DNA from: Methanolobus sp.
Lineage (GTDB): Archaea > Halobacteriota > Methanosarcinia > Methanosarcinales > Methanosarcinaceae
DNA: 64,000 nucleotides
Direction: 5' to 3'
NCBI RefSeq assembly: GCF_016278365.1
Contig: NZ_JADQBZ010000002.1
Span: forward strand, 241,507-305,506
The position numbers and the translations under genes were made by a program. Every line of letters starts with the position of its first letter. Position 1 is the first letter of the stretch. Of the stretch, positions 26,605 to 31,524 are shown in pieces. The notes under the pieces were generated by a model that was not told where the DNA came from, searched no databases, and saw nothing but the letters and a program-made list of their open reading frames with translations.

Positions 26605-26997
26605 TCACATTAAAGGCTGCAGCCTCTGGACGATCCTTTGTTTTGGAACCGCACCTATTATCCGGTCTACGAGCTTGCCATTCTTGAAAACCAGCAGTGC
26701 CGGTATGCTGGTAATAGCATATTTTCCAGCAGTAGATTTATTAGCATCAACGTTAAGCTTGCCAAAGACCACTTTTCCCTGAAGTTCTGATGCCAGTTCG
26801 TCGATGATAGGAGAGATCATACGGCATGGGCCACACCACTGCGCCCAGCAGTCCACAACCGTCAGGTTATATTTTGAGGTGAACTCATCAAATGCAGCAT
26901 CTGTAACTTCGACAGGGTTACCCGGATGCTCACGTTTCTCAAGCTCCTTCTTCAAATCTTCCATTTTCCTCTGCCTTATCTCATCTATTTCGTCCAT
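26605..26997 (-). CDS. Thioredoxin
   Basis: A 130-residue thioredoxin. The active site WCGPCRM has its cysteines at C55 and C58, the fold's cis-Pro is in TSIPALLVF, and the Asp and Lys partners (VVDCWAQ, KLNVDANKS) are in place. About 28 extra charged residues (MDEIDEIRQRKMEDLKKEL) precede the fold, a helical extension present in several archaeal homologues. No signal peptide, so it acts in the cytoplasm. It is followed by marker 14 after ten bases and is probably cotranscribed with it. Confidence 0.95.
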   Translation of the reverse strand: MDEIDEIRQRKMEDLKKELEKREHPGNPVEVTDAAFDEFTSKYNLTVVDCWAQWCGPCRMISPIIDELASELQGKVVFGKLNVDANKSTAGKYAITSIPALLVFKNGKLVDRIIGAVPKQRIVQRLQPLM

Positions 26998-27200: not shown

Positions 27201-27374
27201 ATGGCAGATAAGAAGGGAAAAAACACTCCTGTAGCAGACAGGACTATCTTTGACCAGAAATGCATCACATGCGGAACATGGATGCAGAGGACCGTAAAAG
27301 TAGGAAGGAACGGGATAGGTTCATTCACATATTTCTGTCCGGAATGCGGCTTATCTTATACTGTGGATGAATGA
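27201..27374 (+). CDS. Small zinc-ribbon protein
   Basis: A 57-residue protein with two CxxC knuckles, CITC and CPEC, separated by about 22 residues, the pattern of one structural zinc. The N-terminus is basic (MADKKGKNTPVADR). The ATG at 27201 follows GATAGG closely; a TTG 15 bases upstream is a less likely start. Its stop codon overlaps the ATG of the next gene (ATGA), which shows tight translational coupling to the Mrr-type nuclease, so the two proteins probably work together. No closer family assignment can be made. Confidence 0.78.
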   Translation: MADKKGKNTPVADRTIFDQKCITCGTWMQRTVKVGRNGIGSFTYFCPECGLSYTVDE

Positions 27375-28396
27375 GCAAAATGGAAAAATGGTCACTCGGA
27401 CAACTGCAGGAAATAGAGCCATACAATTTTGAAAAACTCCTTGCTCAGCTTTTCAGGAAGATGGGGTATGCAGTTGAAGAAACGCAGTACTCTCATGACA
27501 GGGGCATTGACCTAATTATCAGGGTAGTGCATTTCGGCCTATCGCACTCATGGATAGTGCAGGCGAAAAGATATACAGAGCCCGTGGGAGTGAAGGCTGT
27601 CAGGGAGTATAGCAGCCTGAGATACCGTGACAGGGTCGATGGGGTAATTATAGTTGCCACCTCCAGCTTTACTAGGGAAGGGCAGGATGAGGCCGCAGAG
27701 CATAACGTCAAACTCATAGATGGTAACCTACTTGTTGAGATGCTCAATCACTATCTGCTTGAAGAGAACAGGGAACTGTATGTAAACGAAGCCAGAGAGA
27801 ATGATGATACACCGGGACAAGAAACTTCAACCATCATGAGAAGAGGAGAGGAATTGCTTGCTGAGGAGCCGGTGATTTTTGGAAAGGAAAAAATGATCAT
27901 GATGATCACGAACAAGAACATACTCTTCAAAAAAGGATCAGGCCTGCTCTTCAGAAAAGAGGACATAGTGCAGCGTATAGAGATGAAGGACCTGGCGGGA
28001 GTACATGCTGACCAGCAAGGTCTTTTCCTCATAGCAGGGCAGAAACGCCTGGTAGTATATCAGATATCTGCCAGGAAAAGAGAGAGGATACTGGAACTTC
28101 TTGAAAACCTCAGGCCGGAATATGTGCGCGGGGAGCATCTCCTTATGTCCTCACGAAATAACTCGGAAATGACGATCCTTACGAACAAAAGACTGGTGCA
28201 GATAGGCATTGAGAATGGGGAAATGGAAGATATCCCATTGTCAAAGATAATAGGAGTGGAGGCCGGAGGAGGACTCTTTAAAAAAGATAGGATTATGATC
28301 TCAGAATCCTCTAATGGTGTGAAGAAGCATTCTTTGGAAGTGGATAACGCCCTTGGATGGAAAAAGGTTATTGAACAAAAGGTGAGAGTTACCTGA
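27371..28396 (+). CDS. Mrr-type endonuclease domain fused to two PH-like domains
   Basis: A 341-residue protein. Residues 1-130 are a restriction-endonuclease-like Mrr catalytic domain: PYNFEKLLAQLFRKMGYAV (helix with E21), the first catalytic Asp D47 in HDRGIDLII, and Q64-A65-K66 in WIVQAKRY, giving the D...QxK core. Residues about 150-240 and 245-341 look like two copies of a bacterial-type PH fold, each with a T-N-K signature strand (MMITNKNILFKK and TILTNKRLVQIG). No methyltransferase gene is adjacent; the nearest is 25 kb away. It could be a modification-dependent nuclease or a repair enzyme. It is translationally coupled to the zinc-ribbon gene before it. Confidence 0.75.
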   Translation: MSKMEKWSLGQLQEIEPYNFEKLLAQLFRKMGYAVEETQYSHDRGIDLIIRVVHFGLSHSWIVQAKRYTEPVGVKAVREYSSLRYRDRVDGVIIVATSSFTREGQDEAAEHNVKLIDGNLLVEMLNHYLLEENRELYVNEARENDDTPGQETSTIMRRGEELLAEEPVIFGKEKMIMMITNKNILFKKGSGLLFRKEDIVQRIEMKDLAGVHADQQGLFLIAGQKRLVVYQISARKRERILELLENLRPEYVRGEHLLMSSRNNSEMTILTNKRLVQIGIENGEMEDIPLSKIIGVEAGGGLFKKDRIMISESSNGVKKHSLEVDNALGWKKVIEQKVRVT

Positions 28397-28501: not shown

Positions 28502-28711
28502 ATGAGGGAAGAGACCATAAAAATAGAAGGGATGATGTGCGGACACTGCCAGATGTCAGTGGAAAAGGCTATAAGGGCTGTAAAGGGAGTGCAGGAAGTA
28601 AGGGTCAGTCTTGGTACTAAGCAGGCTGAAGTTTCTTATGACCCGGGCATCACAGACCCTGTAGAGATTAAGTCCGCTGTGATCAAAGCAGGTTACAAGA
28701 TAGTGGATTAA
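28502..28711 (+). CDS. copZ: Copper chaperone, HMA domain
   Basis: A 69-residue single heavy-metal-associated domain. The metal site is [10 protein letters not shown] (C13, C16), followed by the standard beta-alpha-beta pattern ([23 protein letters not shown], then [14 protein letters not shown]). It should bind Cu(I) and hand it to the P-type ATPase encoded 38 bases downstream on the same strand. An inverted repeat just upstream may be the operator. Related chaperones bind zinc or mercury, but the neighbour favours copper. Confidence 0.9.
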
Positions 28712-28749
28712 GCAAGCAGTTAGCTGCCAATATTCATCTTTTTCCATAT

Positions 28750-31524
28750 ATGAATACAAAGATCAAAGTACACGGAATGACATGCATGCACTGTCATAAG
28801 CGTGTGACAGATGCTATTATGGCCATTGAAGGCGTTTATTCTGTCGATGTAAGTCTTGAGGATGAGAGCGCCACGGTGGAGTTTAACTCCGGGAAGACCA
28901 GCCTTGAAGAGATCAGGCAGGCTGTCACAGATGCGGGATACGAAGTGGGAGAAGAGGAGTGCAGGCTGCCTGAAGAATCACAGCAGGTGCAGGCATGCCC
29001 GATAGTTTCCGATGAAGACCTGGGAGAGCAAAGGAAACCCGAGCCAGGCCAAGTGGAAGATATCGTAATAAAGGTTGCAGGAATGACCTGTGCATCCTGC
29101 GCCCAGAACGTTGAGAATATCCTGAAGAAACAGGCAGGAGTAGCATCAGCCAGTGTGAACCTGCCCATGGAAAGGGCGGCTGTCAGGTATGAGTCTGCGA
29201 TCATAAGCCGGGAAGAACTGGAGAAGGCTATTGAATCTATCGGCTACCGGGTGGTCAGGGACAGGATCACCCTTGATGTGGGTGGCATGACGTGCGCATC
29301 CTGTGCCATGAATGTTGAAAAGGTCCTTAAAAGGCTCAAAGGCGTTAGTACTGTCAGTGTCAACGTTTCCCTGGGAAAGGCACGTATAGAGTATAACTCT
29401 TCCCTGGTTTCCGTGGAAGAGATGATAGCGGCTGTAGATGGGATCGGTTACTCGGCTTCCCTGCCTGCCGGCAGAGAGGAGACCGAGGACAGGGAAAGGA
29501 AAGAAAGGGAAGCGGATATACGCCGCCAGAGAAACAATCTGATAATCTCTGCATTGATAGCCATACCTGTAATGTTTGGAAGCATGAAGGACGGATTTCC
29601 GGAACTGCTCTCCTTCGTACCGGACTTCCTTAAGAACGAGAACCTCCTTTTCCTGCTGACAACCATTGTCATAGTTTTCCCGGGAAGACAGTTCTTTGTC
29701 GGTACTTACCGCGGGCTAAAGCACGGTGTGACCGACATGAACCTGCTCATTGCAACGGGAACCGGAGCGGCCTATGTCATAAGTGTCGCCTCCACATATC
29801 TCGACCTTGGACCCGGATATGAGCACCTGTATTATGACACTGCGGTAATGCTCATTACATTCATAATATTTGGAAGATACCTGGAAGCCCGTGCAAAGGG
29901 CAGGACATCCGAATCCATAAAGAAGCTCATAGGACTACAGGCAAAGACTGCGCATATCATTGAGGATGGTCAGGAAAAGGAAGTGCCTGTAGAGAACGTG
30001 GAAGTCGGAGACATTGTTTTTGTCAGACCGGGCGAGAAGATACCTGTGGATGGAGTGGTTATTGAGGGTTCTTCTGCTGTTGATGAGTCCATGATAACCG
30101 GAGAGAGCATACCTGTTGAGAAAGAGAGCGGGGACCAGGTGATCGGCTCAACCCTCAACCGCAGCGGAGCCCTCAAGTTCAGGGCAAGTAACGTGGGTGC
30201 TGATACTGCACTCGCAAGGATAATCGAGCTTGTGGAAAATGCCCAGAACTCCAAGGCACCCATACAGAGAGTTGCTGACGTTGTTGCGGGCCATTTCATC
30301 CTTGTAGTACATGTACTGGCACTACTTGCTTTCTTCTTCTGGTTCTTCATCGGATTCGAGAGGTACGACGTTCCGGTCAATTCGGGGATCACGAGTCCTT
30401 TCCTGTTCGCGCTTCTTATTTCCATAACCGTTCTTGTCATATCCTGCCCCTGTGCAGTGGGCCTGGCTACCCCCGCAGCCATCATGGTAGGTACGGGCAA
30501 AGGTGCTGAGAACGGCATACTTATCAAAGGCGGTGAAGCCCTTGAGAGAACACTGAAGATTGATACTATTGTGTTCGATAAGACAGGGACCCTGACCAGG
30601 GGAGAGCCTGAACTTACCGACATAGTTCCTCTTGCTGATCTGAGCGCCGATGAAGTACTTATGATGGCAGCAAGCGCCGAAAAGGGCTCGGAGCATCCCC
30701 TGGGGGAAGCCATAGTCAGAGGTGCTGAGCAACGGAATCTTAAGTTAAGGGATGTCGAGGGTTTCAGTTCCATCGCAGGCAAAGGTGTGGAGGCGAACAT
30801 CAGCGGAAGCAGGATATTGCTCGGAACCCGAAAGCTCATGCAGGACAATGGTATCGATATTGCTTCTGTAGAAGGCATGATGCAGAGCCTTGAAGCACAT
30901 GGCAGGACAGCCATGATAGCTGCAAAGGATGGCAGTATCGTAGGTCTTGTGGCTGTTGCGGATACCCTGAAGGAAAATTCCAAAGAAGCCGTTGAGCAGA
31001 TACTCGATATGAATATTGAGGTTGTGATGATCACAGGGGACAATCGCCGGACAGCGGATGCCATTGCAGGTAGCATTGGCATCAAAAGAATTCTGGCAGA
31101 AGTTCTTCCCGAGGATAAGGCTGCAGAGATAAAAAAACTGCAGCAGGAAGGACGCATAGTTGCAATGGTGGGTGACGGGATCAATGATGCTCCCGCGCTT
31201 ACCCAGGCAGATATCGGGATTGCCATGGGAGCAGGGACCGACGTTGCCATGGAGTCTGCACAGATAGTACTCATTAAGAATGACCTGCGGGACGTGATTG
31301 CCGCCATCAGGCTGAGCAGGCTCACTATGAACAAGATCAAACAGAACCTTTTCTGGGCTTTCGGTTACAACACAATAGGTATACCACTTGCAGCCGGGAT
31401 ACTTTACCCCTTCGTCCATACTATCCTGATAACACCCGCACTTGCCGCAGCCTTCATGGCCCTCAGTTCGGTATCAGTTACGACGAACTCTTTGCTGATG
31501 AAGAGGAAGAGCATAAAACAATAG
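28750..31524 (+). CDS. copA: Cu(I)-translocating P1B-type ATPase
   Basis: A 924-residue copper exporter. It has three N-terminal HMA domains (GMTCMHC, GMTCASC, GMTCASC), where most have one or two. The membrane part has eight helices with the Cu(I)-site CPC in [13 protein letters not shown] in [10 protein letters not shown] and MxxSS in MALSSVS, which together define subtype P1B-1. The cytoplasmic loops carry TGES ([10 protein letters not shown]), the phosphorylation site DKTGTLTRG, the HP locus SEHPLGEAI and [10 protein letters not shown]. All catalytic residues are seen. It lies in a copZ-copA-small membrane protein operon and should protect the cell from excess copper. Confidence 0.95.

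Follow-up and report, generated by a model that had tools for sequence, protein, structure and literature searches.

A vertically inherited Mrr-type nuclease with two PH-like domains in Methanolobus and its possible placement at the inner face of the membrane

The window, a stretch of 64,000 nucleotides of a Methanolobus sp. genome, harbors a pair of overlapping genes that encode a small zinc ribbon and a nuclease with a two-part C-terminal tail, termed Mrr-PH here (Table 1). The two genes, their ATGA overlap, coordinates and reading frames had all been given correctly in a preliminary description of this DNA. The ribbon is of the form CITCG ... CPECG, with C21, C24, C46 and C49 invariant in 15/15 alignment rows, and Mrr-PH shares 82-83% identity with its counterparts in two Methanolobus relatives, as determined by a single-sequence scan of genome contigs. 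A search of NCBIfam found no family near cut-off for either protein. Directly downstream of Mrr-PH (window positions 28502-31524), genes for a heavy-metal-associated protein (Pfam HMA) and, judged by eye, a P-type metal ATPase form a pair that is conserved in Methanolobus, without constancy across other genera carrying Mrr-PH. A constant link of Mrr-PH with such copper-type HMA/CopA genes was considered and rejected, as they are not adjacent in several genera that keep the nuclease (loci L059, L060, L062, L130, L131, L134-L141, L143 and L144).

Table 1. Positions of the gene pair, its domains and predicted functional residues in the window.
Feature	Position	Strand	Remarks
Thioredoxin	26605..26997	-	Pfam 1.5e-28; divergent conserved neighbor; context, outside the mechanism
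Zinc ribbon	27201..27374	+	57 aa; CxxCG...CPECG; four invariant cysteines
Mrr-PH protein	27371..28396	+	341 aa; ATGA overlap with ribbon gene
Mrr_cat (PD-(D/E)XK) nuclease domain	27404..27745	+	residues 12-125; Pfam E 4e-30
Predicted catalytic D47	27509..27511	+	invariant 31/31
Predicted catalytic Q64-x-K66	27560..27568	+	Q64 and K66 invariant 31/31
Variable linker	27755..27832	+	residues 129-154; lowest conservation (0.32 for residues 129-152)
PH-like domain 1 (PH1)	27833..28117	+	residues 155-249; AlphaFold model, PDB comparison, Pfam PH_SLA1, charge
PH1 hydrophobic-basic loop	27938..27958	+	residues 190-196; pattern in 18/21 members
PH-like domain 2 (PH2)	28118..28393	+	residues 250-341; bPH_3 and PDB profile matches
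PH2 hydrophobic-basic loop GLFKK	28271..28285	+	residues 301-305; pattern in 21/21 members

The nuclease domain scores 104.7 bits with Pfam family PF04471 (Mrr_cat), whose cut-off is 21, a result far above chance, and is matched in 21/21 family members. The D...QxK core named in the preliminary description is borne out: it reads D47...Q64-x-K66 throughout the 31 orthologs, a set from which the shattered gene of genome G020 was left out and in which the copy of G009 was kept with its stop as X. A full-length AlphaFold model was computed from an alignment of three sequences, namely the window copy and the two relatives from the single-sequence scan; its mean pLDDT is 45, with residues 160-250 best defined. 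As the Mrr part of this model is poor (pLDDT mostly under 50), the Mrr fold is assigned from the Pfam match. In 21/21 members the Mrr domain carries a net negative charge and the linker a zero or negative one. Mrr-PH thus resembles Mrr/Mrr_cat proteins in the domain and its core, and differs from them in its two C-terminal PH-like domains, instead of which E. coli Mrr carries an N-terminal DNA-binding domain. The protein is apparently an intact nuclease with two PH-like domains and, judging from the Mrr family, probably a DNA endonuclease of the Mrr type with putative activity.

Two C-terminal repeats with a T-N-K signature had been proposed to be PH-like. The repeats are confirmed: at the corresponding place of both, 21/21 aligned members carry a TNK-type triplet ([TS][NSK][KR]); the exact letters TNK occur in repeat 1 of 9/21 and in repeat 2 of 12/21. 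Alignment of repeat 1 with repeat 2 by hhalign yielded an E value of 5.3e-4, at a probability of only 31% over 51 columns. A PH superfold of PH1 is supported by its model, which displays seven strands and a C-terminal helix at moderate confidence (three sequences, pLDDT about 52-78 per ten-residue block). Structure comparison of residues 151-252 with the PDB gave Z scores of 10.5-12.2, and the 50 rows retrieved are nearly all PH, PTB, FERM, PH-GRAM or GLUE proteins, part of these assignments being presumed from the entry titles; the title of row 17 (4tyz) gives the protein as unknown. Pfam PH_SLA1 matches repeat 1 in 6/21 members (best 4.3e-6), and the PH1 profile found no match among PDB sequences at E up to 1. 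Because the turn between beta1 and beta2 is short in the model (strands 162-170 and 173-180), a classical phosphoinositide site would not be expected in PH1. For PH2, a PH-like fold is favored by sequence profiles: bPH_3 (PF14470) matches 9/21 members (best 4.6e-4), the window copy itself lying below the Pfam cut-off (E 0.033, 15.1 bits versus a gathering score of 23), and at E up to 1 the PH2 profile retrieved only the bacterial PH proteins 3dcx (0.017) and 3hsa (0.036) from the PDB. Modeled alone, PH2 reached a pLDDT of 55 and a best Z of 2.6, a model too weak for the missing PH rows to count as evidence against the fold. Structure prediction therefore upholds the PH claim for PH1 (Z to 12.2), whereas for PH2, whose model failed, it is carried by the profiles.

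Both PH-like domains contain a loop in which two hydrophobic residues are followed by basic ones, and PH1 is net positive in 21/21 members, with charges of +2 to +10 across the family. The tandem PH domains of Rtt106 and the PH domain of TFIIH p62 are chromatin-reading parallels, and the PH tandem might likewise read archaeal chromatin and bring the nuclease to it. Rttp106-like_middle is matched by one of 21 PH2 members (E 0.017), and the p62 PH domain is among the PDB rows of PH1 (7bmv, Z 10.8). As this is one weak match, however, and rows of this kind come from many PH folds, we regard a chromatin reader as very improbable.

Mrr-PH is under purifying selection, with whole-gene dN/dS values of 0.08-0.20 in five pairs and relaxed values of 0.27-2.4 in the linker. 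It was found in 27/27 Methanolobus genomes (that of the window and the 26 of its genus among the genomes searched) at one chromosomal place, and 25 copies are intact; the broken ones are the shattered gene of G020 and that of G009, with a stop at residue 315 of 341. Upstream thioredoxin and a gene that we take to be methanogenesis marker 14 flank Mrr-PH in 47/50 loci read (31/31 plus 16/19). The exceptions are G182 and two genomes of another family, f5 (G111 and G112), in which the ribbon-nuclease pair is found next to DUF1786 and purE, or next to PGK. Distances between Mrr copies track those of each of five neighbor genes (r 0.90-0.94, with 0 of 2000 permutations for each), as expected of vertical inheritance, and Mrr-PH is read as a vertically inherited chromosomal gene. 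It nevertheless varies more between species than these five neighbors, at a mean distance of 0.42-0.46 versus 0.16-0.34. In two loci (L130 and L131, genomes G140 and G142), an in-frame TAG stands at aligned Mrr-PH residue 247, a lysine in relatives; pyrrolysine is known in related archaea and could possibly be encoded by this codon.

Beyond the genus, 63/237 genomes of the class match at E up to 1e-15. Sixty of these carry Mrr-PH, broken copies included (58 in the family and two in f5), and G092, G162 and G172 match with Mrr only. Within the family, Mrr-PH is present in 6/11 genomes of genus g3; in G150, a SAM gene lies about 200 bases past thioredoxin, with no nuclease between. In the rest of the order the gene is nearly absent, with two genomes. 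Such absences weigh less in incomplete assemblies than in complete ones. Across the phylum (392 genomes), matches at E up to 1e-25 were found in 11 genomes outside the class; these are to the Mrr part, and no full-length Mrr-PH was found there. A mobile origin was also considered and rejected: neither 1335 plasmid records nor five phage records contained a match covering 80% of the Mrr-PH query, and 16 viral contigs match at most up to query residue 144, so that a near full-length relative was absent from plasmids, phages and viral contigs alike. The preliminary description had named, as the outcome that would speak against its proposal, a housekeeping gene universal in the order with conserved non-defense neighbors. 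The neighbors are indeed conserved and non-defense, whereas the gene is universal in the genus only and patchy in the family.

The zinc ribbon follows a distribution of its own. It occurs in 74/236 class genomes and, outside the class, in one genome of the phylum sample (G366). In the window's family, all 31 genomes with a ribbon have Mrr-PH directly downstream (31/31). Outside the family, only two of 43 ribbon-bearing class genomes have Mrr-PH, adjacent again, and 41 class genomes of other families harbor the ribbon without an Mrr-PH match. Forty ribbon loci were examined, from 38 of these 41 ribbon-only genomes (all except G064, G070 and G078), G111 and G366, the neighbors around L166-L168 being covered less fully; among the matches listed, DUF1786 (Pfam 9.3e-84) precedes the ribbon in other families, as does a gene that we read as HMG-CoA reductase. 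Conversely, at E up to 1e-4 no ribbon is matched in 17/27 Methanolobus genomes. One of them, G011 (L034), retains a decayed remnant upstream of an intact nuclease, shortened by about 93 bases relative to other copies; in an eighteenth, G013, the ribbon is broken, with a substitution of the last conserved cysteine and a stop after it. The nuclease remains under purifying selection in ribbon-less species, with a dN/dS of 0.083 for the pair G019/G025. The pairing of ribbon and Mrr-PH is therefore real where both occur, and neither needs the other. As 17 of the 27 Methanolobus genomes lack it, the ribbon is no obligate partner, and its proposed role as the target reader is disfavored. It belongs by definition to the CPxCG small zinc fingers, with under 100 aa and two Cys pairs 7-40 residues apart, one of them CPxCG-like; such proteins are described as common in archaea, and one of them, Brz, regulates its adjacent gene (PMC2253796). 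Like Brz, which is described as regulating bop (PMC2253796), the ribbon is a small archaeal zinc finger directly upstream of a same-direction gene. It may be an accessory, perhaps one that regulates the neighboring gene as Brz does, or a nucleic-acid-binding subunit that can be dispensed with, rather than the sole target reader.

A defense role, as suggested in the preliminary description, receives no support from the neighborhood. No defense gene was found among the neighbors tested, and the constant flanks described above are non-defense genes. PADLOC identified no defense system among 10 neighbors; a Cdc48-type AAA protein and a thymidylate kinase among them match defense models, which we put down to common domains. 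Mrr-PH lies neither among defense genes nor on mobile elements, as anti-phage defense islands would have it. In PADLOC, Mrr-PH itself matches best to ZorD, PDC-S02 and type IV enzymes, all via the Mrr domain. The ZorD match (E 4e-18) could hint at a component of a Zorya-like or other multi-gene defense, yet the model, 1071 positions long, is covered over only some 130 aa, and no gene of a Zorya operon (ZorA/B/C plus ZorD/E) was detected by PADLOC among the 10 neighbors; the neighborhood contradicts this explanation, and we give it next to no weight. The Mrr domain and the same list of matches would also suit a type IV, modification-dependent Mrr-like restriction enzyme directed at foreign DNA that is methylated or modified in another way, with the PH domains as modified-DNA readers or dimerization modules. 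Pfam, however, matched no modified-base reader domain, the PADLOC matches are limited to the Mrr part, and the locus is fixed and without mobile signs, rendering such an enzyme quite unlikely.

What the PH tandem may do is suggested by comparison with other nucleases. Most likely, it positions the nuclease, either at the membrane or on a partner protein. The membrane location raised in the preliminary description remains a live option. No transmembrane helix is predicted in Mrr-PH itself (maximum hydropathy 1.24 across 21 members, by hydropathy window only). We analyzed 15 of the nearest other Mrr proteins by hydropathy window, a partial sample made up of 10 places from the 11 phylum matches (those in G485 and G386 left out, G509 giving two) and five more. 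Transmembrane segments are predicted in eight of the 15, located C-terminal to the Mrr domain in five (L189, L193, L195, L196 and L197; the L189 frame has an internal stop) and N-terminal to it in three (L198, L200 and L202); the remaining seven have none, which counts against a tether. The former five, among the best Mrr matches in the phylum outside the class, share with Mrr-PH the order of Mrr first and a C-terminal module second, and differ in having transmembrane segments where Mrr-PH has PH domains. L196 (671-1750) combines an N-terminal CxxC-CxxC ribbon, Mrr and C-terminal transmembrane segments in one protein, and L200 (240-1793) has N-terminal transmembrane segments, Mrr and a long C-terminal part that by eye resembles the formylglycine-generating-enzyme type. 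In G046 (L157, 1733-2620), the slot between ribbon and purE, which holds Mrr-PH in the congeneric G111, is taken by an RmuC gene (2.5e-33) whose product has a hydrophobic helix at its N terminus; among the matches listed, this swap is seen in one genome only.

Membrane-associated nucleases of other families have been described. Phage defense by a membrane-bound enzyme is known from ShdA, an RmuC nuclease; like Mrr it is a PD-(D/E)XK nuclease, and RmuC (PF02646) is the family found after the ribbon in G046, but ShdA has a transmembrane helix and no PH domain and is located in defense islands (PMC10270631). A possible role in guarding against foreign DNA was proposed in 2005 for COG4741, a PD-(D/E)XK family that is mostly archaeal and has a membrane helix (PMC1189080). 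Some SNIPE homologs without transmembrane helices carry PH domains, a combination of nuclease and PH domain for which membrane targeting was proposed; SNIPE differs in its GIY-YIG nuclease, N-terminal PH domain, DUF4041 and demonstrated defense (PMC13190303), and a Pfam search of Mrr-PH found neither DUF4041 nor GIY-YIG. These homologs soften the earlier statement that PH domains are rare on nucleases (PMC13190303). A search limited to open-licence papers found no account of Mrr with PH domains, which is weak evidence of absence. Support for a nuclease positioned in this way comes by analogy with such proteins, PH domains on a membrane nuclease being already in print for SNIPE homologs.

Our preferred reading, to which we assign a probability of about 0.42, is that of a vertically inherited and probably active Mrr nuclease that is positioned by its PH tandem, most likely at the inner face of the cell membrane. 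A peripheral tether is suggested by the net-positive PH1, the hydrophobic-basic loops and the membrane segments of related nucleases. The tandem would hold the nuclease at this site, and cutting, presumably metal-dependent DNA cleavage as in the Mrr family, would occur mainly there, with incoming foreign DNA or DNA misplaced to the envelope as putative substrates. A stronger version would see a core-genome, membrane-guarding innate DNA restriction module, in which a ribbon and a nuclease with an interchangeable anchor cut entering DNA without a modification or sequence signal; Mrr-PH would use its PH tandem for this purpose, other archaeal Mrr proteins their transmembrane helices, and a relative belonging to a different family of the order would have RmuC. 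We consider this version unlikely.

The main competitor is a housekeeping nuclease of DNA repair or chromosome quality control, whose PH tandem would form a protein-protein or oligomerization module, such as a PF08000-like ring, and play no membrane role. The conserved non-defense neighbors and the vertical inheritance agree with it, as does the proximity of PH2 to 3dcx and 3hsa. PH2 has a weak sequence match to bPH_1/bPH_3 (PF08000/PF14470), and PF08000 is the bacterial PH family nearest to it; oligomeric rings are reported for this family, and Xu et al. argued from a short beta1-beta2 hairpin and an electronegative site that it does not bind membranes, predicting protein binding instead (PMC2817789). 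The available text of that description does not mention nucleases, a point of difference from Mrr-PH (PMC2817789). The patchy presence in the family, with clean absences as in genus g3 and between the thioredoxin and SAM-gene flanks of G150, and the greater divergence of Mrr-PH relative to its neighbors both speak against a housekeeping function. The absence of defense genes nearby and the restriction of the RmuC swap to one genome count against the membrane reading. As the short turn is shared by the PH1 model, it and the argument of Xu et al. also weigh against the membrane, which is why the tether is rated so cautiously and the protein module is kept as a serious, somewhat less probable reading.

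Should the PH tandem tether Mrr to the membrane, archaea would possess in their core genome an equivalent of SNIPE and ShdA, both membrane nucleases, foreign DNA would be told by location rather than by sequence, and a prokaryotic PH tandem would gain a function. If Mrr-PH is a housekeeping DNase instead, Mrr domains would serve stable chromosomal roles outside restriction.
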